In this document: positions 4,878 to 18,886 of the stretch, piece after piece | Numbering within the stretch: the first letter of the stretch is position 1 | How the letters are laid out: every line of letters begins with the position of its first letter | Virus record (IMG/VR): IMGVR_UViG_3300031740_000128 | Location: 1-28,722 of that record | Strand: one strand, 5' to 3' | Length of the DNA stretch: 28,722 bases | From: a virus | Program-made: the position numbers and the translations under genes | Notes under the pieces: generated by a model | Told to the model about the DNA's origin: nothing | Seen by the model: the letters and a program-made list of their open reading frames with translations, nothing else | The model's database searches: none

Positions 4878-6179
4878 TTAACCGGAGCGGGCGTTAGCCT
4901 CGGCGATCATCTCGCCAGTGTCCCAGATATTGCTGGTCTTCTTCTGGGGCGGCTCGATGGGCGCGGCTACGCCACTCGACCCGGTTACGACTTTGCGTTC
5001 GCCTGCTTTTGCCAGAGTCTGTTGATCCACCTGACTCTGCGCACCGTACACCTTCTCGAAGTGCTTGATGTGGCGCTTGGTCGTTTCGTCAACCTTTTCT
5101 TTCAGCTCACGAATTTTCTCGACCACGCCCTTCGCCGCTTTGTTGGCCCTGAGCTTATCGCCGGCAAGCATCGCTTGTTGGTACTCAACGACGTGAGCGC
5201 CGTGGATCTCCCGGTAAAGCGCCCTGGCTTCCTGGTTGTTTTCGAGTTCGCGCACCACCCGCGCCTCGATGTCGGCGCGGATCATCGCGTTCTCGGACTC
5301 AGCCTTTTGCGGATCGACTTCGGTGCTGAACCTCACCGGCGCGATCAGCGTCTTCATCGGGCCGAAGACGCGGCCATTCAGATCGGCGGTGCGCTCTTCG
5401 ACGCGTTCTCGATCCTCTCGCTCGCGGCGCTGCTGCTCGGTTTCGCGGTACTTATTAAGGTCGGCCATCTGCGCTTCGAGCACATCGAGCCGTTTCAATC
5501 TTGCCTGTACAGATGGCGGCAGGGTTGTGAGGTCTTCGTCGCCGGCAGGCGGGTCGGCGTCGGATTCCTCATAGCCGGTTCTTCGTGGCGGATCATCATC
5601 GGTGTCGCCGGGTCGGGCATTCAAAAGAGACAGTACTCGCTGGCGAACCTCCGGGTCTTTGATGGTGTCGGGACGCTCCAAGGCGCGCGCGATCAACCAG
5701 TCGTTATGACGATTGATCACTGCCCATGCCACCGACTCATAAGCATCCTGGCCGCGCTCTGCGGTAATCGTGTCAAGAACCGCATCGCCATTGACTTCAT
5801 TAGCAAGTAATGGCGCTGCAACGCTCTTCACCAGGTCAAGGCCGCCGAGGGTTTCAACTTCATCAACGACGGGCTTGTATCTCTCTCGGATGTCCGTTTC
5901 GAGACCCTCGCCCCACGTCCGCACCCTGGCGAGGTTCGTTGTGGTCTTCGGGTCATCTTCGACGACAGCTTCTGGTTGCGGCGGCTCTTCACCTGTTTGC
6001 GCCGGCGCTGCGCTTTGTTCGCCTGTCTCAGTCGTTATCGTCTGAGCATGTTCCGGTGAATCGCCTACGGTTGCCTTGTCATCGTTGGGGGGCAACGACG
6101 CATCAGGCGGCGGCGCGGCAGGCTGGTCGAGCCTGCCGGCCTCTTCGAGTATCTCCCCCAGATCGAACGGATTTGGCAT
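4878..6179 (-). CDS. Scaffolding-type protein, acidic and coiled-coil rich
   Basis: The start is ATG 6179, with AGAGGA about 7 bases upstream; a longer frame to 6227 lacks a ribosome site. The 433 residues begin with MPNPFDLGEILEEAGR. An acidic, Pro/Thr/Glu-rich disordered region follows (about 20-90), then helical segments, then a strongly charged coiled coil (about 250-380: MADLNKYRETEQQRREREDRERVEE … KGVVEKIRELKEKVDETTKRHIKHFEKVYG). The short C-terminal tail (IWDTGEMIAEANARSG) is where scaffolds often contact the coat. Placement between the small virion genes and the capsid gene matches phage scaffolds. A copy of the repeated CTTGACC/CTTACACTC element lies 59 bases upstream, suggesting it starts a capsid transcript. 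Confidence 0.75.
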   Translation of the reverse strand: MPNPFDLGEILEEAGRLDQPAAPPPDASLPPNDDKATVGDSPEHAQTITTETGEQSAAPAQTGEEPPQPEAVVEDDPKTTTNLARVRTWGEGLETDIRERYKPVVDEVETLGGLDLVKSVAAPLLANEVNGDAVLDTITAERGQDAYESVAWAVINRHNDWLIARALERPDTIKDPEVRQRVLSLLNARPGDTDDDPPRRTGYEESDADPPAGDEDLTTLPPSVQARLKRLDVLEAQMADLNKYRETEQQRREREDRERVEERTADLNGRVFGPMKTLIAPVRFSTEVDPQKAESENAMIRADIEARVVRELENNQEARALYREIHGAHVVEYQQAMLAGDKLRANKAAKGVVEKIRELKEKVDETTKRHIKHFEKVYGAQSQVDQQTLAKAGERKVVTGSSGVAAPIEPPQKKTSNIWDTGEMIAEANARSG

Positions 6180-6238
6180 AAATTTCCTCTCAGCTTGGTG
6201 ACGCGGTTGCTTCCGCGCGAGTGTCATTCACGCGGCGA

Positions 6239-6259
6239 GAGTGTAAGGGGAAGGTCAAG
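6239..6259 (-). promoter_or_regulatory. Repeated 21-bp element, copy A (upstream of scaffold)
   Basis: Reading on the minus strand, CTTGACC, then five bases (TTCCC), then CTTACACTC, 59 bases before the scaffold start. It is one of five copies with identical spacing in this window, all between genes and in the same orientation. It is probably a promoter or activator site for the scaffold and capsid genes. Confidence 0.7.
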
Positions 6260-6270
6260 AGGCAAAGGGT

Positions 6271-6291
6271 AAAAACGTCCCGGTCTCCCGG
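6271..6291 (-). terminator. Possible weak terminator after the 188-aa gene
   Basis: On the minus strand the sequence forms CCGG / GAGA / CCGG, a four-pair stem with a GNRA-type loop, followed after four bases by TTTTT. It sits between the stop at 6325 and promoter-like copy A, a sensible place to end one transcript before the next begins. The stem is short, so this is tentative. Confidence 0.35.
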
Positions 6292-6324
6292 CGCACAGTC
6301 CTCTTCCCTGGATCAGTCAGAAAA

Positions 6325-6891
6325 TCAAACCGTGTAATAGATCGTTATGCGAATGTGATCGACGCTGAACGCGGTGTTCAGCGCCGTCCGCCTGAAGGCG
6401 ATAGCGACTCCGAAACCAGGGTCGCTGACATCAACGGGGCGAAGCGTGCTGCCCCAGCGGTCAACCGCAGAGCCGAGGAGTCGATAACTTTCAGTGCTGG
6501 TTATCGTCTGTGGCAACACATTCGTATCGCTCGGCGCGGTGCCAATAACAATCTCGCCCGCTATTACCAGAGCGGCCTCGCTCAGTCGGCCTACTGAACC
6601 ACATTTGCATTCCACTTCGACCAGCACGCCGTTGATGTCCGCCTGGTCTGGAATTGTGAATCCGAATCCGGTGGCCGCTAGAAAAAGAGTCTGGGGATCA
6701 ATCGAAGTCACGGTGCCACTGACCGTATAGGTATCATCAGACGCTTCGGCATTTTCGGGATTAGTCCAGTGAATCGAGCCGTCCAGCTCATCCTCGACGA
6801 CCTGGCTCGGCGAATGCGGGCCGCCTACCTGCGGCCCGCTGAGCGCAGCCGCTGGCGCTTTCATTCCGCTGGCGATGCTAATGCCGATCAT
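6325..6891 (-). CDS. Conserved phage virion protein with beta-sandwich pattern, 188 aa
   Basis: ATG 6891 shares its A with the TGA of the preceding gene (TGATG); a TTG one codon earlier is possible. The protein has a segment IHWTNPENAEASDDTYTVS … FTIPDQADINGVLVEVECKC and ends IRITIYYTV. This pattern (Trp-x-Asn-Pro-x-Asn-Ala, a 'FxIPxxAxIxG' strand, and a terminal 'IxITIYY') recurs in many phage structural gene regions as a small beta-sandwich decoration or fibre module; that statement is from memory of such proteins. Its position between the portal and scaffold supports a virion role. Exact function is unknown. Confidence 0.65.
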   Translation of the reverse strand: MIGISIASGMKAPAAALSGPQVGGPHSPSQVVEDELDGSIHWTNPENAEASDDTYTVSGTVTSIDPQTLFLAATGFGFTIPDQADINGVLVEVECKCGSVGRLSEAALVIAGEIVIGTAPSDTNVLPQTITSTESYRLLGSAVDRWGSTLRPVDVSDPGFGVAIAFRRTALNTAFSVDHIRITIYYTV

Positions 6892-7172
6892 CAATACACT
6901 CCAAGGATGTCGGCGGCGGTCGTCCCCGTGGCAAACACCCGTGTCGCGCGAATCGGGTGGATTATCCCAGCAGCAAGCCCCTTGAAGGTAACGGTGTCGC
7001 CGCCGGCGGTCGTCAGCTTAACATCGCCCGCTGTACCGAGGTACAGTCCGCGAGTGACAACGGCAAGGTCATCGTCATTGCTAGCTGCTATTGCGAAGGC
7101 GTGCTTAACCGGGAAGAGCATCGAAACGCCCGCCTGGCCTGAGTTTTCGGGAGTCTTGTCAACTGCTGACAT
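6891..7172 (-). CDS. Small conserved phage head-region protein, 93 aa
   Basis: ATG 7172 has GGAG with 7-base spacing. The protein contains DDDLAVVTRGLYLGTAGDVKL … GGDTVTFKGLAAGIIHPIRATRVFATGTTAADILGVY. This is a compact all-beta pattern ('DLxxVTRxLYxGTAGxxxxTxxGGxxVTF … PxRxxRVxATGTTA') that I recognise from small proteins in phage head and neck modules, often described as spike-like or simply hypothetical. It follows the portal by 24 bases and is coupled to the next gene (TGATG), so the portal and the two small virion genes form one translation unit. Function beyond virion association is unknown. Confidence 0.7.
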   Translation of the reverse strand: MSAVDKTPENSGQAGVSMLFPVKHAFAIAASNDDDLAVVTRGLYLGTAGDVKLTTAGGDTVTFKGLAAGIIHPIRATRVFATGTTAADILGVY

Positions 7173-7196
7173 ATGGTTTCTCCATTTCCAAATCGG

Positions 7197-9788
7197 TCAC
7201 TTCGCCGTGGGACTCGCACCTGCCTGCTGCTGGCCAGCCGAGCGAGTCGGCAAATGCCTTTGCTGCCTGCCGGCATTGGCCGCAGGAGAAGAGCTTCCCT
7301 GCTTTCCGCTGCCTGGCTTGCCATCACCTTTACCTTGCGCCTGGCGCTCGGCATCTGCGTTGGCCTGCGCTTCTTGCAGGGCCATCTGCGCGGCCTGCGC
7401 TTCAATCGCCTTCTCGCCCATGAACTGCTGCACCTTCACCTTGTTGTCGACGTGCGCCATGATGTGCGCCTCTAGTGCCGCCCACATCACCGGGCGGCAC
7501 TTCATTCCCTGGTCGGTCTTGCGCCACTCGACGATGGTCTGGATATGCACGTCGTCGTTATCGACGATGAACTCCGGCTTGATCTTGCTGGCCAGGAACT
7601 GCACAACCATCGGATGCGGCATGGGCTCTTGCGATGTGGAGCCATCCGGCAGCGGCATCCCTGGCGGCAACTGCTCCGGTATGCCCTGCGCCGCGAAAGC
7701 CTCAAGAACGTGCGGCAACATATCCTCAAGCTGCTTGATCTCCAGGCGTTGCTTGCGATAGTCGGGCGCTACGTCGCCGGCGTCGAATGACAGACCGTAC
7801 TGTTCGAGCAAGTAATTGAACAGCTTCGGCTGGCTGCGCACCGGATCAGAGAAGATGCCGCCGGGCAAGCTGCCCCAGTTGCCCGCGTCGATGATCGTCG
7901 CGCGCTGGTCGGCAACCGACTGCACCTCGGAGGAGCCAGGCACTTCCCATAGCTCGAAATCCCCCTGGATGTCAGAGCGACCGAACCACTGGCCTTCCTG
8001 GTCATCATACTGACCGCCCATGAAGTGGTACTGTACGCCCACCCAGTTCTTCTGTTTCTCCCGCAGAACAATCTCAGTGGTGTGCATGTCGGCTTCGGCT
8101 TTGAGGTCGAGCGTCGGGCCGTGCAGAATGTTGTTCTGGTCGCGCAGGATGGCTGTCCGCGTCGCCGGCTCCGAACGCCCGCCGCTGTCGCCGACGAAGG
8201 CATCGAAGGCTGAGAACTGATGCTGCATGTTGGATTGCTTCTTCTCGATGAAAGCCGGCAGATCGGGGGTCGCGCCGCCGCCAGGCGATTCCCAGATGTA
8301 CTCGCCTGGCCGGTCATCTTCCTGCGCGTTCTGCAACTCCATCAGGTCGCGCGGTGAGCCGGTGATGTCTTCGGCGTTGTACTTGAGAGGATTGTAAGCC
8401 GTCTTACGCGAGGCGTGGTGCATCAGGATTTCATACCAAAGGGATTCAGCCTCATTGAGCTGTTCATTCTGAGATACCGCGTCGTCCTGGCCGCGCCCCC
8501 ACACGGAGTTAGGCACGATGTCGAAGCGCCCATGCACCCACCAGTCGTTTTTGTCTTCGGCGCGCTCCTGAACGATCTGGTTGCCGATGCGTCCTAGGTA
8601 CATGCCATCCGGGTACAGCTCGCGAAGTTGTGTCTTCGTGGGAAACTCAACGTCGCCGGCGACCTCATCTGGCGTGATGTAGAAGCTGTACATCGCCGGC
8701 GCAAGCCAGGCTTCCTCGAATTCGACCATGTCGTGATAGGAATCGTTGAATACCGAATAGGAGCCGCCGCCGTTGGATGCTTCAAGCGAGCGCTGATACA
8801 TCAGGATCAGGTCGCTTGAGGCGGTAGAGCGCGACATCTCAGCGAAGGGGAAATGGTCTTCGAGAACTTCCTGTAGGAACAAACGGCGGCGGATGAAGTA
8901 AGGCGAGGTCTCGAAGAATCTGCTATGCAGGTGCAGCTTGCCTTCCATCGGATCGACCGCATCTGCAATCAGGTCGCCTGAATCGATCTGCTGGTGGCCG
9001 GTGACGACATTCATCGATAGCGCCGGCAGGCCCATCTGATAGATGTCTTCCGAACCGCATGTCGGGCAGAGGCCGTTATCGAGTGGCGGGCGGGCCTGGC
9101 CGAGAGCTGCGCCGGCGGTCGTAAAGCCGCCGCCGGAGTTGGTCTCAGTCGGGCCGAAGGTGCCGCACTCGTTGCACTGGTAGCCTTCCTCTTCGCCGGC
9201 GATCTGGATCTGCTCGGTCTTCGGGATGAGCGCCGGCACGCCGCCTTTCATCGACCAGTTAAAATTGCGCAGGTAGTTGCCGGTGAGTTGCGAATACTTC
9301 GATTCCATCTGGCGATGCGATGCCTTCCAGCGCCTGCGCCACCAGTCCTTTTGCACGACATCGGCGACTTTGGCCGCGCCGACCAACTGCGGGTCGTCGG
9401 TGCGGGCGCGCACCTTGAACTGCGCCTGGGAACGCCCCGCCATCGCCGCGACCGAGCGTACGAAGAAACCATACTGGTTGTTCGCGTGGATCGGGTTGTC
9501 GGGATCAGGCGAGTTCGGCACCCAGAAGCCTGTGCGGTTGTCCCAGTGGCCGTCCTGATTGCCGAGATAGAAGTCGACATTGCGCTTCCAGACGCGGACG
9601 CGCTGAAGATCGACGTAGCGGTTTTCGGCGCGTATGCGGTCAAGCAGGGTGTTCAAGAACGTGCCGGGCTGGACGCCTTTGAAGCGGTCGGCGAGTCGTT
9701 GAAGGGTGGATTTGGCGCGCAGTCTCGCGTCAGGGCCGAGGGCGCGTCCGGCGGTCGTGCTGTTGATATTGGCTATGCCGGTTGACAC
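7197..9788 (-). CDS. Portal protein, long form with a Cys4 insertion
   Basis: The 863-residue protein has portal features: an N-terminal helical region (residues 40-115, RIRAENRYVDLQRVRVWKRNVDFYLGNQDGHW), a central wing/stem region, a DQNNILHGPTLDLKAEADMHTTEIVLREKQKNW helical segment, and a C-terminal Gln/Ala-rich helical tail with low-complexity Gly/Ser/Lys. An insertion at about 205-244 carries C205-x2-C208 and C241-x2-C244, a possible zinc knuckle. The only nearby start is GTG 9788: no ATG/GTG/TTG follows for a long way and a stop lies at 9810-9812 upstream. No ribosome site is seen, and the repeated 21-bp element ends only 5 bases before it. The portal forms the dodecameric packaging/ejection ring. 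Its length is above most portals. Confidence 0.75.
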   Translation of the reverse strand: MSTGIANINSTTAGRALGPDARLRAKSTLQRLADRFKGVQPGTFLNTLLDRIRAENRYVDLQRVRVWKRNVDFYLGNQDGHWDNRTGFWVPNSPDPDNPIHANNQYGFFVRSVAAMAGRSQAQFKVRARTDDPQLVGAAKVADVVQKDWWRRRWKASHRQMESKYSQLTGNYLRNFNWSMKGGVPALIPKTEQIQIAGEEEGYQCNECGTFGPTETNSGGGFTTAGAALGQARPPLDNGLCPTCGSEDIYQMGLPALSMNVVTGHQQIDSGDLIADAVDPMEGKLHLHSRFFETSPYFIRRRLFLQEVLEDHFPFAEMSRSTASSDLILMYQRSLEASNGGGSYSVFNDSYHDMVEFEEAWLAPAMYSFYITPDEVAGDVEFPTKTQLRELYPDGMYLGRIGNQIVQERAEDKNDWWVHGRFDIVPNSVWGRGQDDAVSQNEQLNEAESLWYEILMHHASRKTAYNPLKYNAEDITGSPRDLMELQNAQEDDRPGEYIWESPGGGATPDLPAFIEKKQSNMQHQFSAFDAFVGDSGGRSEPATRTAILRDQNNILHGPTLDLKAEADMHTTEIVLREKQKNWVGVQYHFMGGQYDDQEGQWFGRSDIQGDFELWEVPGSSEVQSVADQRATIIDAGNWGSLPGGIFSDPVRSQPKLFNYLLEQYGLSFDAGDVAPDYRKQRLEIKQLEDMLPHVLEAFAAQGIPEQLPPGMPLPDGSTSQEPMPHPMVVQFLASKIKPEFIVDNDDVHIQTIVEWRKTDQGMKCRPVMWAALEAHIMAHVDNKVKVQQFMGEKAIEAQAAQMALQEAQANADAERQAQGKGDGKPGSGKQGSSSPAANAGRQQRHLPTRSAGQQQAGASPTAK

Positions 9789-9793
9789 GCGAA

Positions 9794-9814
9794 GAGTGTA
9801 CGGGCGAGGTCAAG
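9794..9814 (-). promoter_or_regulatory. Repeated 21-bp element, copy B (abuts portal start)
   Basis: The minus strand reads CTTGACC, five bases (TCGCC), CGTACACTC, one mismatch from the other four copies. Only five bases separate it from the portal GTG, so a transcript started here would be leaderless or nearly so, or the copy acts as a regulator of transcripts from copy C. Confidence 0.65.
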
Positions 9815-9855
9815 AGGAAACGCAGAGAGGCAAAGTAGAGATTGATTACCATTCA

Positions 9856-9919
9856 CAGCAAAGGCCCTGATCTGCGGTTTCGAGGTGAAACCATGCCCAA
9901 AATGCGCGAGCCTTTGCTG
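9856..9919 (-). other. Nested inverted repeats between the two portal promoter elements
   Basis: An outer 10-bp perfect stem (CAGCAAAGGC 9856-9865 with GCCTTTGCTG 9910-9919) encloses a 6-bp hairpin (GGTTTC 9876-9881 / GAAACC 9887-9892, five-base loop). No T-run follows, so it is not an obvious terminator. It would lie in the leader of any transcript from copy C. Confidence 0.5.
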
Positions 9920-9925
9920 CAAGGT

Positions 9926-9946
9926 GAGTGTAAGGGTTGGGTCAAG
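9926..9946 (-). promoter_or_regulatory. Repeated 21-bp element, copy C (portal, distal)
   Basis: The minus strand reads CTTGACC, five bases (CAACC), CTTACACTC. It lies between the stop of the membrane protein gene (9969) and the portal, 138 bases before the portal start. With copy B it makes a tandem pair in front of the portal-scaffold-capsid genes. Confidence 0.7.
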
Positions 9947-9968
9947 GGGAAGGAGAGGCGCGGCAATC

Positions 9969-11006
9969 TCACGATGTTGGCGGATTGGCGGCAGGTTCGA
10001 GTGTGGCGGGGTTGGAATGTTGCACATCAGACATATTCTTCCTCTTAAATACCACACTAAATCCCTGACCCGGCAACATCACACCAAAAAAAGTCCACTG
10101 GCGTTTGTCAGAGTCGTATCTAAATTCGTGGGTCGGAAACCAGGTATACACCTCGACTTCTATGTCACCCGGAACCTGTTCCAATAAGGTTAGAGTAATT
10201 GTTGGAAGAGGATCTGCGGAATTCGCAGTCGTTGGAGCAGGAACGACCATTTCCGGCATCACCAGGGTGTAGATACCTGGAATATTTATTATCTCATACC
10301 GTTTTATCTGTATTGTTGCAGGTTGTTTCTTGTCTAAATGTGGAAGCCTGATCCCATCCTTTCCTTCTAGGCTGAAACACCCCTTTTCAGTATCAATGAT
10401 ACTTATTAGATCAGCTCCTTTGTAAATCTTAGCTTGATGTTCACCAGGCTTAATTACTCCTATTTCTTCGAAGCGCGGGATCTTCTGATGGCCGTCCCGC
10501 ATATGGTAGTCGAGATAATGCTTTACGCTTATAAGAGGATTTCCTGTCTTAAGCCCATAAAGCTCATAACTTGAGTCGGTCCACAGGACTGCCTGATTGA
10601 TTGGCAGAGTAATGTCTTCCTCGCCTGAGAACTTCCCGTCAGGGAAAAGACGCATACTGAATTTTAGATTTCGGCGTAAGACCAATCTATGCAGCACCTC
10701 TCTATTGACTTCATCCCAAACCTCTTTAGTAATCTGCGTAGCCATTACTAACCCAAGTACCTCCTCAATCTTTTGGTGTTCGGCAGTTGTTCTGGTGCTC
10801 CATTCATACATGAATGAAACGATGCCTGCGACTATAAATGCGATTCCTATATCTCTGACGATTTCTTCCCAGCGGTGGTAATTTTCTGTGACCTCCTTAA
10901 ACCAATGCCAAAGTTTAAGCAAATTGGGGGAAAGCAAAATTAGAATGCCAATCACAATGCCTACAATAGCAGCCCTCCAAACATCTTTGGGTACTCCAAA
11001 AAGCAT
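9969..11006 (-). CDS. AT-rich two-TM membrane protein (moron candidate)
   Basis: ATG 11006 is preceded by AGGAG at 8-base spacing. The 345 residues start with two hydrophobic helices (about 11-30 AAIVGIVIGILILLSPNLL, and 53-69 IGIAFIVAGIVSFMYEW). A helical linker follows (EHQKIEEVLGLVM), then a long soluble domain (about 100-345) with many beta-type segments ending near GVMLPGQGFSVVFKRKN. It resembles bacterial membrane-anchored proteins of unknown function with the 'RDIGIAxIVAGIxSxxYE' second helix. The gene is far more AT-rich than flanking virion genes, sits between the KTSC gene and portal, and has its own sigma-70-like promoter. Those are marks of a moron expressed independently of the late genes. 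A role in lysogeny, exclusion or host physiology is speculation. Confidence 0.75.
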   Translation of the reverse strand: MLFGVPKDVWRAAIVGIVIGILILLSPNLLKLWHWFKEVTENYHRWEEIVRDIGIAFIVAGIVSFMYEWSTRTTAEHQKIEEVLGLVMATQITKEVWDEVNREVLHRLVLRRNLKFSMRLFPDGKFSGEEDITLPINQAVLWTDSSYELYGLKTGNPLISVKHYLDYHMRDGHQKIPRFEEIGVIKPGEHQAKIYKGADLISIIDTEKGCFSLEGKDGIRLPHLDKKQPATIQIKRYEIINIPGIYTLVMPEMVVPAPTTANSADPLPTITLTLLEQVPGDIEVEVYTWFPTHEFRYDSDKRQWTFFGVMLPGQGFSVVFKRKNMSDVQHSNPATLEPAANPPTS

Positions 11007-11060
11007 TAGACTTTCTCCTTCGATAATGAACGATTCGATACATCTCTTGAAAGTAGGTGA

Positions 11061-11089
11061 TATGTATCACAATTAGCAAGTCATATCAA
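11061..11089 (-). promoter_or_regulatory. Sigma-70-like promoter of the membrane protein gene
   Basis: On the minus strand TTGATA (11089-11084) and TACATA (11066-11061) are 17 bases apart, about 55 bases before the start codon at 11006. The -35 matches consensus at 5 of 6 positions, while the -10 is weak. The surrounding 130-bp intergenic stretch is AT-rich. Confidence 0.45.
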
Positions 11090-11136
11090 ATTAGAATTCC
11101 AACAGGTCACGATTGCATAATCAGGTCAAGGCTTGG

Positions 11137-11370
11137 TTATTCCAACTCGTGTTTCGTCCACTCGTGGTTAGGCTTGATCTGCGTGTGCAAGAAAGAGCCG
11201 ATAGAGTCGGCTTCCATCATCTCGGTGTGCCTTTCCGGTGACACATCGGAATAGTGACCCTCTGTTGAGATAACACCATCCCGGTTTTTGAAGGCGACGT
11301 GTAGCTCGCGCTTCTCAGGGTCATAGCCAACGGAGTGGACGTGATTGCTTTCAACCGCTGTGCGTTGCAT
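11137..11370 (-). CDS. KTSC-domain small protein, 77 aa
   Basis: The sequence VESNHVHSVGYDPEKRELHVAFKNRDGVISTEGHYSDVSPERHTEMMEADSIGSFLHTQIKPNH follows the KTSC domain layout: a beta strand with 'VGYDPxxxxLxVxF', a short aromatic strand, a helix ending 'ADSIGSFLHxxIK'. In most KTSC proteins the last part reads K-[TS]-S-x-G, replaced here by ADSIGS. The domain is thought to be involved in RNA or nucleic-acid binding but is poorly characterised. The start at 11370 overlaps the end of the coiled-coil gene by 20 bases. The 130 bases beyond its stop (11007-11136) hold the promoter of the membrane protein gene. Confidence 0.75.
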   Translation of the reverse strand: MQRTAVESNHVHSVGYDPEKRELHVAFKNRDGVISTEGHYSDVSPERHTEMMEADSIGSFLHTQIKPNHEWTKHELE

Positions 11371-11776
11371 CTTGCCCTCCCTGCTCTTCCATAAACTCTT
11401 TCACTTCCCGCTGAATCTTCTCGAACATCTGATCGCCCACTTGCTGCCCGCGCTTTGCAGACCTGGCCATCGGCCCGCTGCGCGCCATTTCCTTCATCTG
11501 CGGCGTCGCGGTTGAAGGCTGCGGCCTGTTCTCGAATATTGGGAGCAGGCCGCTCTTCTGACCGACGCGATCAACGACGCGGGTGAAGGCTTTGAAGAGT
11601 TCCGCGTAATCGCCGCGCATCTGCTCCACCGCCGCCTCGTGCTTCTCTTCCAGCTTGTAGACTTCGCTGGCGTGATCCGAGCGTAGCGCCTCAAGCTCGG
11701 CGGCGTGCAGTTCGCGCTCGCGCCGGAGCTGCGCGGCGAGCAGCGGGTAATTAAATATGCGGGCCAAGATGTTCAT
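11351..11776 (-). CDS. Coiled-coil phage protein, 141 aa
   Basis: ATG 11776 starts 12 bases after the previous stop (11788). After an N-terminal hydrophobic segment (MNILARIFNYPLLAAQL) comes a heptad-patterned coiled coil (about 17-70, RRERELHAAELEALRSDHASEVYKLEEKHEAAVEQMRGDYAELFKAF). A polar linker with KRGQQVGDQMF and a short acidic helix (EKIQREVKEFMEEQGG) follow. No enzyme motif is visible. It lies in the small-gene run after the large terminase and could be a head-assembly or scaffolding accessory or an inner-membrane-associated protein; the sequence does not decide. No clear ribosome site is seen. Confidence 0.65.
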   Translation of the reverse strand: MNILARIFNYPLLAAQLRRERELHAAELEALRSDHASEVYKLEEKHEAAVEQMRGDYAELFKAFTRVVDRVGQKSGLLPIFENRPQPSTATPQMKEMARSGPMARSAKRGQQVGDQMFEKIQREVKEFMEEQGGQDATHSG

Positions 11777-11787
11777 CTGGAGCCGGG

Positions 11788-12564
11788 CTATTGAGTGACT
11801 GGCTTCTGGTCTGACACATTTGATAAAGCGTCAGAAGTGTCAGGCGCGGCCTTTGCCTCGCCGACCAAGGCGAGTTGGTCATCGGCATTTGCTTCAGGAG
11901 TATCACTCGCAGAATGCGCCGCCGGCTCGTCGCCGCTCGCGGTTTCAAGGCGGCGTGCCACATCGGGTGGATAAGCATCGCCAGGAATTTCGATCATTTC
12001 ACCTGGCACCTGTACGGCTTCAGCATCAGCGCCAATCCGCGGGTCTGCGCAGCCGGGGCCGGTCTGCGTCTCATCCGCCAAGCTCATCGCATAGGCGACA
12101 TCGCCGTGAACCGGCACGCTGGCCGCAAGCTCAAGCGGGATGCTATTGAGTTTGACGATGGTGCCGGTTTTCAGGAGAGGCAAATTCCAATCTTGATCGA
12201 AACCGGCGGGAGACTGCGGCGGGTTACTCGGCGCACCTTCGAGGCTGTTGTGATACTCCAGCGATTCCAGGTTGTCGTCGTAAGGCTCACCCGTGCAGCG
12301 CGACCTGATGCGCAGCGCCAGCTTATCCTCGCTGGCCACTTCATCCAGGTTGATCAGCACCGCAACGGGGACGAGGCCCAGCGCCACCGCCGCGCGCCGC
12401 CTGCCGTTTTCAATTGGCTCGCTGGTGATTCTCTGGTTGCCACCTTCTACAACCATTGACTCTGCGCAAAGTTGCTGCGCCAGCGCTTCAGCCAGCTCAC
12501 GTAACAACACGGCCTGCTGATAATCATGCTCGTGGAACAGTTTCCGAACGGGTTGTGAACTCAT
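11788..12564 (-). CDS. Hypothetical phage protein with acidic disordered tail, 258 aa
   Basis: ATG 12564 overlaps the preceding TGA (ATGA) and has GGAG 5-6 bases upstream, so a longer frame to 12588 is rejected. The N-terminal 60 residues are helical (HDYQQAVLLRELAEALAQQLCAES). A region with a hydrophobic strand cluster follows (about 65-100, RRRAAVALGLVPVAVLINLDEVASEDKLALRIRSRC). A middle part rich in Asn/Pro and a strongly acidic Ala/Asp/Ser tail (about 190-258) follow. No domain is recognised. Its place downstream of the terminase, coupled to an 83-residue gene, suggests a packaging or head-completion accessory, inferred from location only. Confidence 0.6.
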   Translation of the reverse strand: MSSQPVRKLFHEHDYQQAVLLRELAEALAQQLCAESMVVEGGNQRITSEPIENGRRRAAVALGLVPVAVLINLDEVASEDKLALRIRSRCTGEPYDDNLESLEYHNSLEGAPSNPPQSPAGFDQDWNLPLLKTGTIVKLNSIPLELAASVPVHGDVAYAMSLADETQTGPGCADPRIGADAEAVQVPGEMIEIPGDAYPPDVARRLETASGDEPAAHSASDTPEANADDQLALVGEAKAAPDTSDALSNVSDQKPVTQ

Positions 12565-12812
12565 AGAGGCTCCTCTGTTTCTTGGCATTCAAGTGCCGGT
12601 TTCCAAACCACGTAGTCGACGCCTTCAAGGTGGCGTCGGATTTTCCCCTGCCTCTCAAGCTCCAGGCAGGCTTCGTGCTTCATGCGTTGATCGGCATCGG
12701 AATCCAGGTAGGTCGTGATGCCGGTCCCAAGGTGAGGCAATAGTCGCCCTTCGATGAAAGCCAGAAGTTCGGCCAGCGCATCGGCACTTATCTTTGTTTC
12801 TTTTTCTTCCAA
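12561..12812 (-). CDS. Small hypothetical phage protein, 83 aa
   Basis: The only good start is TTG 12812, overlapping the terminase stop (12788) by 25 bases, with a purine stretch upstream. The protein is helical and charged: EEKETKISADALAELLAFIEGRLLPHLGTGITTYLDSDADQRMKHEACLELERQGKIRRHLEGVDYVVWKPA. The second half (HEACLELERQGKIRRHLEGVDYVVWKP) looks like a small winged-helix-type C-terminus, where a basic helix is followed by a beta hairpin. That would fit a DNA-binding role, but it is only a fold impression. The stop is coupled (ATGA) to the next gene. Confidence 0.6.
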   Translation of the reverse strand: MEEKETKISADALAELLAFIEGRLLPHLGTGITTYLDSDADQRMKHEACLELERQGKIRRHLEGVDYVVWKPALECQETEEPL

Positions 12813-15028
12813 TGCACCGCTTTCTTCGGTTTTGACTTGATGCCCCGCAGGGCAATGGTCACCTCGCGCGTCAGCCGGCGCTGCGCCAACTCTTCCTGCT
12901 CCCGCGCGCTCATCTGTAACCTACCATCGGCGTCAAGCTGTGGGCGCAGGTTCTCCTGACGCAGGTGCTCAGGCAACTGCTCCTCGAAATCCTCTTCCGT
13001 TGTCTTGTTGGCAGGCGACGGCCCCCAGATGCGGCAGAGGTAGCGGTCATCATCGATGCGGTCATCGTCACGCTTGAACGGCTTGCGCGCCGCCACCGGC
13101 TTATCCTTCTCGGTCGCCGGGTAGTGATAGAGCGGGTACTCGCGGCGCGCCTCCTTCTGGCCGCCGAGGCTGGTCTTTGCCGGCGGCCGATAGAGGCGCT
13201 CGCCATCCGCCAGCAGCTCGCCCTCATCCTTGTTGACGATCAGCACATAGCGCGTCCTGCCGATCAAATGCTCGCCATCGTGGGTCGCCTTACAGACCTT
13301 GCATTCGTGTTCAGGTACATACGCTTGCACTGCCTTAGGGTCGGTAGTGCGCGGGTCGATCACGAAGGGGTTGGCTTCGGGCAGCGCCGTCATCAGCGCT
13401 CGCATCTCTGAGATGCCGGCGTTGGCCTGTGGCTTCTTGATGCGCTTGAAGCGGATCGGGTAGCGCTTGCAAGTATAGCGATAAGTGCGCTGCTCGCTCT
13501 CGCCCTCCTGGGAGATCTGCGAGACCGTCATGCGTTCGCCTTCTTTGAGGGGCGTTTCAAATTGCTGGATGCCATCCTCGACAACATTGCCCTGCTCGTC
13601 GCGACGGCCCTCGCCGATCCACTCGACCGGCCAATCAGTGGGCGCAACGAACTCGCGGTAGGCGAAGATAGTGTCGGCGAACGGATCATCCTTGCGCGGG
13701 CGCGTGTACCAAGCCGTGACGTTCAGGTGGTCTTCAGTCGTGCCCACGTCTTGTAGGCGGGCGAGATTCCATGTCCTGGGAATGTGATCGACCCCATAGA
13801 CGCGCTTGAAGTCCTCCCAGGTGATGATGCTGAGAATATCATCCCACATCGTCAGGATGCGGCCAGGCTGCGAGGCTTTGTAGTCACGATCAACTTCGGA
13901 GGCGATCTGCTCCGGAGTCATCGGCTTGCCGCCGTAGCCGTATGGCAGCGCATCATACCAGCGCTCGTCTTTCCAGGGATGCTCGTGCCAATCCATCACG
14001 AAGACGTTGGCGCGGCCAGAATGCCGCTCGTCGGCGTAGGCGTTGAACATGCCGTCGGGCGTGCCGAGTTTGAAGAATGACCTGGTCGTCTGCGACAGCG
14101 CCTTGTCCTGGGGATAGCCGCCGAAGGGCCAGGTCGGAAATTCATCGGCGAGCACAACCGTGGCGCGGCGCTGCCGGCCTACCCTGGCGGTCGGTGGCGA
14201 CCCGGTGATCACCGCGCTATTCTCCGGGTTGGCGATGTTCATATACGGCATGTCGCGGTCGAGGCTGAAGCCCTTCGGTAGCATCCAGGAAGGCAGCAGG
14301 CGCATTTGAAAGCGCGCTTTTTCAAACAGGGTGTCGGGATCCTTCTTCGAGTCGATCAGGTCTTCGGTTGCTGAGGTAAGCAATGCCGAGAAGCCGTCCT
14401 TGAAACGCCACTGCTTGATCGCCCAGCAGATGAAGCCCACCGTCGCGCCGGCGTCGCGGCATTTTTCGATCAGGCCGCTGGTGCGCCGGTTGAATGCCGT
14501 ATCCTCGATCCAGCGCAGGTAGCGCTCCTGGAAGGTGAAGGGGTAGAAGGGCATCACCGCCAGGGGCGAGTCTTCGCGCGGATCGTAACCCCAGGCGTAA
14601 TACCTGAACCAGCGTAGCGTGCCTTCGATGCCGTTGCTGCACAGATCGAACTCTTCTTCGTAATCCCCGGATTGTTTGAGCGTGGCGAGGTGTTCGAGTC
14701 GCTTCTCGGCGATGCGCGCGGCGCGCGTCAGTTGCGCATTGACCAACTCAAATTGATACCAGCGGAACTGACGCTCGATGTCAGACTGCGCCGCATCGAT
14801 CAGCTTGCGGATCTTCTCCTGCTCCGGCTCGATCAGCGCCTCGGCAGCAAGGCAGGATTGTAGCGCCGCGTACAGGCGTTCATCTGGGTCGAAGGCTTTC
14901 TCGCGCAGCAAGGGCTTATTTGCCTGTGCCCTTCGCAGGCCGCGAATCGCTGGCTGTACCAGCATCGAGTCGGATGGTTCCCCATCGCCGTTCGACAGCC
15001 TGGCAAAGCTGGGTACACATATCCCCAT
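12788..15028 (-). CDS. terL: Terminase large subunit (packaging ATPase/nuclease)
   Basis: The 746-residue protein has an N-terminal helical region (1-150). The ATPase core follows: a deviant Walker A at 188-198 (EKCRDAGATVG, where terminases often read KSRxxGxSw), a region typical of this terminase branch (LLTSATEDLIDSKKDPDTLFEKARFQMRLLP), Walker B with catalytic Glu at about 291-297 (VVLADEF), and a coupling-like segment KLGTPDG near 321. The C-terminal half should hold the RNase-H-like nuclease but its acidic motifs are not clearly readable. It contains a possible knuckle EHECKVCKATHDGEH (about 571-586) and ends in a Lys-rich tail. The start at 15028 has AGGA about 11 bases upstream and overlaps the upstream gene by 113 bases; ATG 14965 is an alternative. 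It packages DNA through the portal. Confidence 0.85.
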   Translation of the reverse strand: MGICVPSFARLSNGDGEPSDSMLVQPAIRGLRRAQANKPLLREKAFDPDERLYAALQSCLAAEALIEPEQEKIRKLIDAAQSDIERQFRWYQFELVNAQLTRAARIAEKRLEHLATLKQSGDYEEEFDLCSNGIEGTLRWFRYYAWGYDPREDSPLAVMPFYPFTFQERYLRWIEDTAFNRRTSGLIEKCRDAGATVGFICWAIKQWRFKDGFSALLTSATEDLIDSKKDPDTLFEKARFQMRLLPSWMLPKGFSLDRDMPYMNIANPENSAVITGSPPTARVGRQRRATVVLADEFPTWPFGGYPQDKALSQTTRSFFKLGTPDGMFNAYADERHSGRANVFVMDWHEHPWKDERWYDALPYGYGGKPMTPEQIASEVDRDYKASQPGRILTMWDDILSIITWEDFKRVYGVDHIPRTWNLARLQDVGTTEDHLNVTAWYTRPRKDDPFADTIFAYREFVAPTDWPVEWIGEGRRDEQGNVVEDGIQQFETPLKEGERMTVSQISQEGESEQRTYRYTCKRYPIRFKRIKKPQANAGISEMRALMTALPEANPFVIDPRTTDPKAVQAYVPEHECKVCKATHDGEHLIGRTRYVLIVNKDEGELLADGERLYRPPAKTSLGGQKEARREYPLYHYPATEKDKPVAARKPFKRDDDRIDDDRYLCRIWGPSPANKTTEEDFEEQLPEHLRQENLRPQLDADGRLQMSAREQEELAQRRLTREVTIALRGIKSKPKKAVHWKKKKQR

Positions 15029-15581
15029 CGGTTATCACTTCCTGCGCCGCCCGGAAAACCTCATAGCCCAGTTGCTCGATCACCCGGTTGAGCGTTCCGA
15101 GGCTTACCGTCGTCGAGGCTTTCATTTTCTGCACGCGCTCGACCATCGCCCCGACGCGATCAACCAGAGTGCTGATTGAGGCAAAATCGGGAAGTTGTTT
15201 CGGCTTGGGATTGGGATTCTCCGCGCTTGCAAAAGAATCATGCCAAGCGAGCAGGGCACCATCGGGGCCATAGATTTCATTCCAGCGATTGCACAGGTCC
15301 TCGGTGATGGCGCGCAGCAAGGCGACTTCCGGCAGCAGATCGAGCGGGTCCGGATCGGCTTTGAACCGCGCTATCGCGTCTTGCAGATCGACGCGTTCAA
15401 TGCCGGAATAGCGCCCATGCCGGATTGGATTTGAACCGCCATGCAGCTTGCACTTGCCTGTGCCGGGATGATCGGTTCCCCAGCCGGCAGCCTGTGTGCA
15501 AAGCTCGTCAACGCCGTGCTTCTTGCCGCCGCATTTCGCCGCCGCTGGCTTCTTCGCCTTCTTTTTCTTGCTTACCGTCAT
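14916..15581 (-). CDS. Candidate terminase small subunit with Cys/His HGG motif
   Basis: Position just upstream of, and overlapping, the large terminase gene suggests the small subunit. With ATG 15581 as start (TTG 15602 is possible) it is 221 residues. It opens with a Lys-rich stretch (MTVSKKKKAKKPAAAK). Then come C17, C28, C44 and H47 in CTQAAGWGT…GKCKLHGG, followed by PIRHGRYSG. This HGG-x2-P-x2-HGRYS arrangement is familiar from phage small-terminase-like or terminase-adjacent proteins and may bind zinc. The C-terminal 120 residues are helical (SISTLVDRVGAMVERVQKMKASTTVSLGTLNRVIEQLGYEVFRAAQEVI), suited to an oligomeric ring. DNA recognition by this protein is inferred. The start region carries a duplicated 16-bp segment. 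Confidence 0.65.
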   Translation of the reverse strand: MTVSKKKKAKKPAAAKCGGKKHGVDELCTQAAGWGTDHPGTGKCKLHGGSNPIRHGRYSGIERVDLQDAIARFKADPDPLDLLPEVALLRAITEDLCNRWNEIYGPDGALLAWHDSFASAENPNPKPKQLPDFASISTLVDRVGAMVERVQKMKASTTVSLGTLNRVIEQLGYEVFRAAQEVITDGDMCTQLCQAVERRWGTIRLDAGTASDSRPAKGTGK

Positions 15582-15617
15582 GAGCGACCTAAGGATGGAC
15601 AACCGTCATGAGCGACC
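15574..15617. repeat. 16-bp direct repeat across the small terminase start
   Basis: The 16-base sequence ACCGTCATGAGCGACC occurs twice, at 15574-15589 and 15602-15617, with 12 bases between. Each copy contains, on the minus strand, an ATG-ACG-GT start-like string; the upstream copy opens only a 6-codon frame ending in TAG. It looks like a small local duplication of the translation start. Confidence 0.75.
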
Positions 15618-15640
15618 GATTCGGATTATCAGACGTGGAT

Positions 15641-16006
15641 TCACTTCGGTTTCGCTTCAGATCCTTGCTGCTTCTTCAGCGTGAAGAAGATGCGCGACTG
15701 GCGCTCATCGATGTTGACCTCGTACTTCTCCGGATCAACGCCGAGCGCCCTCATAAAGCCGTCGAGCATGGCTTTCTTGCCTTGCTCCTGCTTGTCGGCT
15801 TGCAGATCGGCAAGTACAGCGTTGGCGCGCAAGGCTTCGGCGCGGTTGCGGGCCGACTCGATCTGGGTGAGTGTGAGCGCGTATTCAAGGATTTGCTCCT
15901 TGGTCGCCTGGATGACTTCAGGCGGCGTAGCCTTGGCAGGAGGCTGCTGCTGCCCGAAAGCGGTGAATGAGAGCACCAGAACCGTGATAGCGAGCTTTAT
16001 GATCAT
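15641..16006 (-). CDS. Exported small coiled-coil protein, 121 aa
   Basis: ATG 16006 has AAGGGGA 4-6 bases upstream and gives a clear Sec signal peptide (MIIKLAITVLVLSFTAFG / QQQPP, cleavage near 18), so the longer frame to 16063 is rejected. The mature part is a single amphipathic helical region (about 30-85, EVIQATKEQILEYALTLTQIESARNRAEALRANAVLADLQADKQEQGKKAMLDGFMRAL) ending in a short charged strand segment and a Lys/Ala tail. It starts 25 bases after the tail-fibre stop, so the two exported proteins may act together, for example as a fibre chaperone or periplasmic partner. An o-spanin-like role is less likely, as no lipobox Cys is present. Function unknown. Confidence 0.65.
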   Translation of the reverse strand: MIIKLAITVLVLSFTAFGQQQPPAKATPPEVIQATKEQILEYALTLTQIESARNRAEALRANAVLADLQADKQEQGKKAMLDGFMRALGVDPEKYEVNIDERQSRIFFTLKKQQGSEAKPK

Positions 16007-16031
16007 AAATCCCCTTTCAGGATTGGTATGG

Positions 16032-18506
16032 TTATTTCCAAACCGGAACCCAGACAGTCGCACCGCTCGAATCCTGCATCTTCATCCAGCCGTTCTGCGC
16101 TGCCGTCGTCGGCCCGCCGGTGCCGCCGATGAAGTTGGTGCCGAACGCGGGCGTTGAGCCGCCCGTGGCAGTGATCAGCGCGGTCGTAGTCTTGAATACT
16201 GGACTTTCAACCGACGTGCCGACGTAGATGGTTCGCGGCTTATTGCCGCCCGACAGGCCGATGTCATTGGCATTGTTGGTAAAGGCGATGAAGTGACCGC
16301 TACTGTTTAGTTGCCAGTATTCGGTATTGGCGACTCTGAAGCCCACCGCTGTCGTGCCGTTGAAGATGGTCTCCTGCAAGGCCGGCTCATAAAGGATTGC
16401 ATAGTTTGAGGTCGTCGGGACTGAAGAGGCAAGCGGGCCGAACCAGAGGCCAGCATAGGTGGTATCGCCGTCGGCAAAACCAATCCTCACCTTGTTGGTG
16501 TAGTTATTGTTCGCGGTGAAATTCGCACCGCTGAAGACATGCCTGCCGTCCTTATCGAGCATCACCTGGTTGCTGGCGTTCATGCCGAGCAAACGGTAGT
16601 CATTGGTGCCATCGGTCGCCGTGATGTAGGACGGGCGAATCAAACGCAGGGGCATGACGGTCTTCGTCAGCGACTTTCCTGAAGCCGTCGAGCCTGCGAA
16701 ATTCGTAGTAAGAGTTAAAGAGGTATCCGATACCGGCGTGCTCGCCACCTCGTACCAGGTGACGCCGTCATCAGCCAGAGTGACCTGGTCGCCGCCAACA
16801 AATTCCTTAGTGAACTTGGTGCCGCTGCCGGTGATGGTCGCCGAGCCGTTAGTCACGGTGACTGTACCTGTAGGCCCGAAAAGCCCGTCGGAGTTATCGA
16901 TGATGTAGCGCCTGACGGAATCGCGCTTCGGTTTGATGCCAATCGAGAAAGAAGTTGGCAGCGGCGCTTCAAGCTGAATGCCGAGCGAGCTTTCGGCGTT
17001 GCCGCCGGCGGCGACATTCAAGGAGATCAGGCTGTTGAGGCTCGCCCCGTTCAGGTCGCCGTCGATGCCGCTGTTGTTCACCGATTCAGTCTGCAATGCT
17101 ACAGCGCGAACGCCGCTGACGATCCGCTCGACCATCATGACGTTGTAGCCATAAACATTCACCCCGCCTGGGATGTTGGTCGGACTGAGAACCACATGCG
17201 ATTTGATGCCGTGGTTGTTGTAATCGCCGGCGGCAAAGCCGGTCATGTCCTGGGACACCCGGTTCAAGAACCCGGCGATGTAGGTGTCGCCAGGTCCGGA
17301 GATCTTGTTGAAACCGAATTCGTAGCCAAACACCCCAACGCCGAGGCTGCCGCCGCTGCGCGAGGTCTGAAAGACCATCGAGGGGTTGCCGCTGTTGATC
17401 GGCGAGCCGACAGTCGAATCCGCGCCTTGCGCCATCAGCGCCATGGCTCCAGTATTCGCCCAGCCAGTATCGTTCACCGTGGCATTCTGAAATCTCAGCA
17501 GCGCCGGCATCAGCGCTGGATTTGCACCCGTCGAGCGCTTGAGTGTCTTGCCGCCCGTGCCGCTGAACAAAACGATCTCCGAATCCGTCGACGAGCTAGT
17601 ATTGGTGCTCGCATCGCCGCCCGCTCCGGAGCCGTTGCTTGCGGCGGTAACTCTGCCCTTCGCGTCTACGGTGATGTTGGCGTTGGTGAATGAGCCTACG
17701 TTGCTGTTCACCGTCGCTAGGGTAAAGGAGGTGCTACCCGGTCCGCTCGCCGAGCCGTCACCGGTGAGCCCGGTGAGATAGTTGCCGACCGACTGTTTGC
17801 CGGCCAACGCGCTGGCCAGGTCGCTCTGGCTGCCGAGCGTGCCGATGATCTGTCCCCACTGGCCGCCAGTGGGGACGCCCCAGCGAATGCCGAGCGCCTG
17901 CGTCGAGTCGGCTATCGGCACCTGGCCATTACTGCCTACCGGAAGCCGCGTGCTGCTGCTGCCGAAGACATAAAGGTCGCCTTTGGTCGTCAGGGGAGCA
18001 AGCCCCGCAACAAGTTGGAGTATCTGTGTGCGGTTGAAGGTCACGCCATCGATGTGCGGCACGCTCGTGGCATTAAAGATGATTATGTCTGCCCATGTGG
18101 TTGTGACAGGCTGAGCGGGAACGGAAAACGTCGAAAGACCATCAAAGGATTTTATCTGCTGCCCCTGCGCCGTGTAGAACCATGCGCTGTATTTCGCATC
18201 ACTTCCAACAAGCGCATCGGACAGGCTATCAATGGTAGTGAGAGGAATCGTAAGGATGCCGCCCGCGACGGAACAGGTGATGTCTGCATACACCGGCCCG
18301 CCGTTCTGTACACTCCCGGCGATCAGAGTGTGCTTATCGCTTGTAACAACCACCTTATTTACATAGATGCGCAGGTGCGGATTTGTGGCTGAATTCTGCC
18401 AGTTGCCGATTGTAGTGCTGGTTATGGTGACCTGTGCGGCCTGTACCGCTGCCGTGGCCGAGAAGAGAAGAAAAAGGATTGTCGCGAGTTGAAAGAAACG
18501 TTTCAC
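16032..18506 (-). CDS. Tail fibre/spike-type protein with Sec signal peptide, 824 aa
   Basis: GTG 18506 is preceded by AGGAGG at 9-base spacing. The first 24 residues are a signal peptide (MKRFFQLATILFLLFSATAAVQA / AQ). Next come a beta-rich N-terminal domain (25-150) and fibre modules typical of phage tail proteins: DLYVFGSSSTRLPVGSNGQ…IRWG (about 205-235), GLTGDGSASGPGSTSFTLATVNSNVG…ITVDAKGRVTAASNGSGAG (about 270-325), and a strand-rich module GTVTVTNGSATITGSGTKF…GDQVTL (about 570-630). No S74 peptidase or known depolymerase motif is seen. It is Ser/Thr/Gly-rich throughout and probably binds the host surface. The signal peptide is odd for a tail fibre, which normally folds in the cytoplasm. 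A copy of the repeated 21-bp element lies 34 bases upstream. Confidence 0.75.
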   Translation of the reverse strand: MKRFFQLATILFLLFSATAAVQAAQVTITSTTIGNWQNSATNPHLRIYVNKVVVTSDKHTLIAGSVQNGGPVYADITCSVAGGILTIPLTTIDSLSDALVGSDAKYSAWFYTAQGQQIKSFDGLSTFSVPAQPVTTTWADIIIFNATSVPHIDGVTFNRTQILQLVAGLAPLTTKGDLYVFGSSSTRLPVGSNGQVPIADSTQALGIRWGVPTGGQWGQIIGTLGSQSDLASALAGKQSVGNYLTGLTGDGSASGPGSTSFTLATVNSNVGSFTNANITVDAKGRVTAASNGSGAGGDASTNTSSSTDSEIVLFSGTGGKTLKRSTGANPALMPALLRFQNATVNDTGWANTGAMALMAQGADSTVGSPINSGNPSMVFQTSRSGGSLGVGVFGYEFGFNKISGPGDTYIAGFLNRVSQDMTGFAAGDYNNHGIKSHVVLSPTNIPGGVNVYGYNVMMVERIVSGVRAVALQTESVNNSGIDGDLNGASLNSLISLNVAAGGNAESSLGIQLEAPLPTSFSIGIKPKRDSVRRYIIDNSDGLFGPTGTVTVTNGSATITGSGTKFTKEFVGGDQVTLADDGVTWYEVASTPVSDTSLTLTTNFAGSTASGKSLTKTVMPLRLIRPSYITATDGTNDYRLLGMNASNQVMLDKDGRHVFSGANFTANNNYTNKVRIGFADGDTTYAGLWFGPLASSVPTTSNYAILYEPALQETIFNGTTAVGFRVANTEYWQLNSSGHFIAFTNNANDIGLSGGNKPRTIYVGTSVESPVFKTTTALITATGGSTPAFGTNFIGGTGGPTTAAQNGWMKMQDSSGATVWVPVWK

Positions 18507-18539
18507 TGTTCCGCGCCTCCTAAGGTGAATTGGCGCAGA

Positions 18540-18560
18540 GAGTGTAAGCAGAGGGTCAAG
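18540..18560 (-). promoter_or_regulatory. Repeated 21-bp element, copy D (upstream of tail fibre)
   Basis: The minus strand reads CTTGACC, five bases (CTCTG), CTTACACTC, 34 bases before the tail-fibre GTG, whose AGGAGG follows at about 18519-18524. It lies in the 74-base gap between the small basic gene and the fibre gene. Confidence 0.7.
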
Positions 18561-18580
18561 GGGCCGTATAAGACGGACGC

Positions 18581-18826
18581 TTAGACCGATGCGCTGAAGC
18601 GGCGCTTGCGCAGTTTGCCGGCTTCAGGCGCGCCGCCGCGCTTGCGGCTGCCGGTGACGGCCTCGTGGCCGCGCTCGATCTCGCGCAGATCGGCGAGCTG
18701 CTCATCCTCGGCTTTGCTGACCACTGAGGGGTTTTTACGCCACGGATGCTCCTTGCGGCGCTCTCGTCGCTCGGCTGGAGTTGCCTTCTGTTTTTTAAAC
18801 AGATTCGATAGTGTCGATTTTGCCAA
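18581..18826 (-). CDS. Small basic phage protein, 81 aa
   Basis: TTG 18826 is preferred because GGGAG lies 7 bases upstream and gives the phage-like start MAKSTLSNLFKKQ; a TTG at 18853 would add nine residues without a ribosome site. The protein is highly basic (RRERRKEHPWRKNP, RKRGGAPEAGKLRKRR), with one acidic helix (EDEQLADLREIERGHE). Such composition suits nucleic-acid binding or a packaged internal protein, but no family is recognised. It is preceded by copy E of the repeated element and faces away from the plus-strand cassette. Confidence 0.55.
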   Translation of the reverse strand: MAKSTLSNLFKKQKATPAERRERRKEHPWRKNPSVVSKAEDEQLADLREIERGHEAVTGSRKRGGAPEAGKLRKRRFSASV

Positions 18827-18865
18827 TGCCCATCTCCCAACGGAACTTGCCAATTACAATGCGGA

Positions 18866-18886
18866 GAGTGTAAGGGCGCGGTCAAG
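18866..18886 (-). promoter_or_regulatory. Repeated 21-bp element, copy E (upstream of small basic gene)
   Basis: The minus strand reads CTTGACC, five bases (GCGCC), CTTACACTC, 40 bases before the TTG at 18826. It lies in the divergent region between this gene and the plus-strand cassette starting at 18918. Confidence 0.7.

Follow-up and report, generated by a model that had tools for sequence, protein, structure and literature searches.

A repeated element in the virion gene cluster

What is the repeated sequence that stands before several virion genes in the 28,722-base virus record analyzed here (the window, probably a fragment), and what reads it? The initial annotation took it for a phage-specific promoter class, and its description of the copies is accurate. 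Five copies of CTTGACC-N5-CTTACACTC are present, all on the minus strand, four of them exact and one (9794) with a single mismatch, and all five are wholly intergenic, compared with 5.3% of 21-mers. In 100 dinucleotide-preserving shuffles, matches with up to three mismatches averaged 0.10, with a maximum of 2. The sole further match at this threshold in the window itself, 15869, lies within a gene and is treated as chance.

The elements and the main genes of the virion cluster, which comprises the window's minus-strand genes, are as follows (G001 is the relative described in the next section):

3527..4840, minus strand: major-capsid-like gene, 40% identity to G001 gene 27
4878..6179, minus strand: scaffold-like gene following element 6239; 28% identical to G001 gene 26
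6232..6259, minus strand: predicted 28-bp late promoter element preceding the scaffold-like gene, with its core at 6239-6259, its -10 at 6240-6245, and +1 predicted at 6233
7197..9788, minus strand: portal-like gene beginning with GTG and preceded by elements 9794 and 9926; 42% identical to G001 gene 23
9787..9814, minus strand: predicted late promoter element preceding the portal-like gene, with its core at 9794-9814, its -10 at 9795-9800, and +1 predicted at 9788, the first base of the portal GTG
9919..9946, minus strand: second, upstream element of a tandem pair (9926) preceding the portal-like gene, with +1 predicted at 9920
12788-14965, minus strand: large terminase gene, annotated TerL matches at 29-37% identity
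16032..18506, minus strand: tail-fibre gene, downstream of element 18540; PHROG tail fibre matches; aligns with G001 gene 14 over 281 aa at 44% identity
18533..18560, minus strand: predicted late promoter element (18540) before the tail-fibre gene; predicted +1 at 18534
18581..18826, minus strand: small gene of unassigned function following element 18866, with GGAG before its TTG start
18859..18886, minus strand: predicted late promoter element (18866) before the small gene 18581-18826; predicted +1 at 18860
19601-27181, minus strand: gene for a 2,526-aa protein with a transglycosylase domain, part of the virion cluster

The names portal, scaffold, and capsid are based on gene order, size, and G001 homologues, since the family search gave no match for these three window genes; G001 gene 26 sits between the portal and capsid genes of that phage. 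The reported location upstream of late virion genes is borne out for the portal-, scaffold-, and fibre-like genes but not for 18866, which precedes the small gene of unassigned function. Similarly, the flanking CCNC described before the element is found at the window copies but not in G001, where sequence upstream of the element is not conserved. The initial annotation did not mention the conservation that lies downstream, TYYnCRY at positions 22 to 28.

The 2,526-aa protein also carries a domain named for inorganic pyrophosphatase (PF18823), which is widespread in DarB-like phage proteins. On the plus strand, positions 1298-2518 encode a protein that combines several helix-turn-helix domains with an endonuclease-I-like domain at its C terminus; G001 has no homologue of this protein. 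Positions 9969-11370 have a lower G+C content, encode a 345-aa putative membrane protein and a KTSC-domain gene, and part the portal-like gene from its upstream neighbors; the G001 counterparts of the genes flanking this segment overlap, with no element between them. In the window, the insertion is followed by two elements, as if restoring portal expression.

A distantly related phage carries the same element

When 2.9 million viral contigs were scanned for the exact motif, 12 stretches matched, and among these only L015 of IMGVR_UViG_3300005546_000011 (G001), an IMG/VR contig of 70,987 bp, also encodes a homologue of a window protein. The protein match runs along the head genes (identity, 42% for portal, 47% for terminase, and 40% for capsid). 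DNA similarity is limited to short stretches, mostly of about 77% in the terminase gene, so that leftover DNA identity does not simply account for the shared elements. The window phage and G001 are two distantly related uncultured bacteriophages. Searches for further relatives with the portal, terminase, and capsid proteins returned G001 alone from viral contigs and none from genome contigs; in a phage collection, the portal and capsid queries found no match and the terminase query matched distant TerL proteins only.

By its gene content, G001 looks like a temperate phage. It carries an integrase, cI- and cro-like genes, an O-like replication protein, and an exonuclease, and between the cI- and cro-like genes lies a canonical promoter, TTGACA-N17-TAAGAT, which is predicted to be an early promoter. 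Both contig ends enter one tandem repeat, which lies in a reading frame (SGSASNSG-type repeats) and has a period of about 27 bases, and this repeat common to both ends suggests that G001 is near-complete, with little sequence missing. Its virion cluster encodes a 3,923-aa protein (L027:5047-16815) that combines a transglycosylase domain with a Strawberry-notch-type helicase (AAA_34 and Helicase_C_4) and a 2H phosphoesterase-like domain, the last weakly matching Acb1 (anti-CBASS); this is possibly an ejected counter-defence protein. In the early region, Prok-E2_D (prokaryotic E2-like), JAB, and ThiF genes lie together (L025:4905-8013), like plasmid PRTRC-type cassettes, and a response-regulator receiver domain is encoded amid the late genes (L025:13662-14210).

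Allowing up to three mismatches, five sites were found in G001, all on the forward strand. A 28-bp matrix trained on the five window sites alone gave exactly six clear sites in this relative, the same five plus 24426, with scores of 17.2 to 34.4 and the next match at 7.6. Conversely, a matrix trained on G001 recovered the five window sites at 17.7 to 30.6 (next match, 11.6). In 100 shuffled G001 sequences, the best score averaged 11.7 with a maximum of 18.6, and 3 of them reached 17; the weakest G001 site is unconvincing alone, whereas the whole set is convincing. All six sites are on the coding strand, intergenic, and before late genes, and G001 holds no copies of similar score within genes or on the other strand. 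Counting both phages, 11 of 11 core sites (five in the window, six in G001) are wholly intergenic against the 5.3% of 21-mers, and the element precedes the scaffold-like gene in each (6239 in the window, 24426 in G001). A relaxed search added a seventh G001 site, 43418 (TTTGACG-N7-TACGCT), in tandem with 43540. Tandem pairs are also seen at 24426/24477 in G001 and at 9794/9926 in the window, and the second element of a pair can be degenerate.

Beyond G001, the exact and relaxed motif scans of IMG/VR gave isolated matches only, most of them inside reading frames, and these look like chance. One stretch, L007, scored well as a motif carrier and was rejected, its match being antisense across a phage structural cluster. 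Among the contigs searched, the class is carried by two genomes only, the window and G001, and literature searches for the motif returned nothing relevant.

That G001 shares the element, its strand bias, its intergenic position, and the kind of gene downstream strongly supports a phage-specific promoter class. The sites are repeated, oriented, intergenic, placed before late genes, and conserved in a relative, as expected of phage late promoters, and we put the probability that they are promoters of one shared late class at about 0.9.

Anatomy of the element and the predicted start site

Across 12 sites, the conserved unit spans 28 bp, YTTGACS-N7-TANRCT-N5-YRY; neither the 20 bases ahead of it nor the sequence past position 28 shows clear conservation. 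The two boxes keep a rigid distance: there are 12 copies of TTGAC-N8-TANRCT, all of them on the late coding strand, whereas any other offset from 2 to 25 yields at most one match per strand. TANRCT is present in all 12, almost always as TACACT, and YRY occupies positions -1, +1, and +2 in 11 of them, the exception being 43418, with G at +2. The element and its rigid spacing, orientation, intergenic position, and conservation in the relative are read directly from the sequence, as is the limit that the portal GTG sets on the start (see below).

The initial annotation had called the element unlike sigma-70 promoters, which is true of one half of it. A sigma-70 promoter has the form TTGACA-N17-TATAAT. 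In 12 of 13 sites, TTGAC, the core of a -35, sits 7 bp from the -10, which is ten short of 17 and outside the 16 to 18 bp that separate a sigma-70 -35 from its -10; with this spacer in 12 sites, plain sigma-70 was rejected as a full explanation. The other half does resemble such promoters. TANRCT with YRY would make a fair sigma-70-type -10 plus initiator, in that the sites match TAnnnT with a start about 7 nt past the last T, in a register picked after viewing the alignment. The likeness to sigma-70 promoters thus comprises the TTGAC core, the TANNNT-type -10, the start 7 nt after it, and one G001 site with a 17-bp spacer. This site, 9058, lies before the fibre gene, which in the window has a site as well, and reads TTGACG-N17-TACACTCTCC; the -10 region (TACACT) is kept, and TTGAC is at the canonical 17 bp, ten more than elsewhere. 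Ten base pairs amount to about one helical turn. As a single case, 9058 could be an ordinary sigma-70 promoter sharing the -10.

The portal gene bears on where transcription would start. Its GTG at 9788 is the only usable in-frame start nearby, and the portal of G001 begins at the corresponding residue. If 9794 serves the portal gene, its transcription start lies no further than position 27, and the portal message is predicted to be leaderless, with the GTG exactly on the predicted +1. Two G001 genes have their start codon 4 nt past the predicted +1 and lack a Shine-Dalgarno sequence, and the leaders of the others measure at least 15 nt. The window's tail-fibre leader, 28 nt from the predicted +1, contains AGGAGG.

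Could the element act as RNA instead, signalling translation or processing from within the leader, rather than as a promoter? It is always upstream of genes and in sense orientation, as this would require. However, its distance to the start codon ranges from 5 to more than 130 nt, and the genes without a Shine-Dalgarno sequence include those with the predicted +1 only 0 to 4 nt before the start codon. No excess folding was found (z, -1.9 to +1.2), and on this ground an RNA structure was rejected. We hold an RNA signal to be most improbable.

Candidate readers of the element

The initial annotation suggested a phage RNA polymerase or a phage-coded factor, and of the two we favor the factor (see Discussion). 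A single-subunit, T7-like polymerase would suit the length (21 to 28 bp) and asymmetry of the element, which resemble promoters of that kind, and ACACT recalls the SP6 and K11 promoters. However, no match to the PF00940 (RNA polymerase) profile was obtained for G001 in a search run without a positive control. No RNA polymerase or sigma family is among the Pfam and PHROGs matches listed (25 per table) for its non-structural genes or was matched by its largest late protein, although profile searches would miss very divergent sigma or polymerase genes and the contig may lack a little sequence. Because G001 looks near-complete and yet has no recognizable RNA polymerase gene, a phage polymerase is not borne out. 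In addition, no A+T-rich melting region precedes the start, and the early region is lambda-like. A T7-like reader is very unlikely.

That the phages encode no obvious factor could also mean that a host alternative sigma reads the element, exploited by both phages without need of a phage factor. If the host used such a class throughout, unrelated phages infecting it might be expected to carry it too, and the finding that 2.9 million viral contigs gave, beyond G001, isolated chance-like matches therefore counts against it. We regard this as distinctly unlikely.

The spacing invites comparison with sigma-54 as well. As a variant -24/-12 promoter, the element has the same distance between boxes, TTGnC-N7-TTnCA corresponding to TTGGC-N7-TTGCA, and most flanking bases agree with the consensus (PMC4591121). 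Five bases are important in sigma-54 promoters, and transcription starts 19 bp from the motif centre (PMC4591121). Here, however, two of the five (the second G of GG and the G of TGC) are A, and site 24426 loses the C too. Membership was rejected on the basis of G-A and T-A-C (T-A-A at 24426) in the sites instead of GG and TGC. Likewise, a start at 19 bp would land inside the portal GTG, the start here being too close, and the extra conservation downstream, ACTC and YRY, would be left unexplained. A sigma-54 variant is very unlikely.

Possibly, a divergent phage-encoded sigma steers the host core polymerase to TTGAC plus TANRCT, as in phiEco32 and 7-11, whose late promoters are read by a phage sigma on host core (PMC8948821). 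The element is bipartite, rigid, and confined to late genes, and distant phage sigmas can share as little as 15% identity, with promoters that differ between related phages (PMC8948821). The promoters of phiEco32 and 7-11 are likewise phage-specific and repeated before late genes, with the phiEco32 start 6 to 8 bp past the element and early genes using host sigma-70. In contrast, their consensus is tAATGTAtA or GTAAtg-16-aCTA, compared with TTGACS-N7-TANRCT here, and their sigma gene is known, whereas none is recognized here, no sigma family being among the matches listed for the G001 non-structural proteins. The 7-bp spacer also argues against this proposal; to our knowledge, it is much shorter than in any known sigma-70-family promoter. 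We consider a phage sigma unlikely.

Candidates for an activator, selected by position in G001, gave no informative match. For gene 12, a positional regulator candidate, the predicted fold is of low confidence (pLDDT 57). Gene 13, directly before the late region, encodes a 64-aa protein with two CxxC pairs and is an activator candidate by position only.

Discussion

We infer that transcription initiates at these sites, that it does so late, and that their reader is host polymerase together with a phage factor. In its stated form, with host RNA polymerase on the -10 and the phage factor on CTTGACS, this mechanism has in our estimate somewhat better than an even chance of being correct. TANRCT (-12 to -7) would serve as the -10, opened by a sigma-70-family sigma on host RNA polymerase, and the start would fall on the purine of YRY, seven bases past the last T of TANRCT. 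A -35 at the usual distance is absent, and CTTGACS at -26 to -20 would replace it, contacted either by a late activator that the phage encodes or by sigma region 4, which such a factor would have displaced. Ordinary bacterial machinery should not read the element unaided, so the phage probably supplies a helper factor, and the virion genes would be switched on only after an early phage protein has been made. Tentatively, and with a rather low probability, the phage factor might reposition sigma region 4 during initiation so that TTGAC is read about one helical turn too near the -10. If so, the 17-bp fibre site of G001 would represent this promoter in uncompressed form.

The proposed reading by host polymerase plus a phage factor is reminiscent of the T4 middle promoters, which depend on sigma appropriation by MotA/AsiA (PMC2988021). 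There, too, the host -10 is kept and the -35 is replaced by a phage box nearer the -10. However, the MotA box, (a/t)(a/t)(a/t)TGCTTtA, and the -10 are 12 plus or minus 1 bp apart, a distance not found here, where CTTGACS lies at 7 bp, and no MotA or AsiA homologue was recognized.

Lambda has a single late promoter, pR', at which host polymerase is helped by the phage protein Q through antitermination. The likeness is that of a temperate phage whose late genes are read by host polymerase with a phage protein, as is proposed here. In contrast to the one promoter of lambda, many predicted promoters lie along the late genes in the present phages. The pR' sequence has a normal 17-bp spacer (PMC4604602).

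In summary, sequence alone allows the probable control of late genes to be defined in a phage lineage for which no cultured member was found, and the element yields predicted start sites and predicted leaderless virion genes. None of the tested promoter classes accommodates a TTGAC box exactly 7 bp from the -10, and the element is short enough that the question of what reads it is directly testable with reporters. If host polymerase does read it, these phages would provide another route by which a phage redirects that enzyme.
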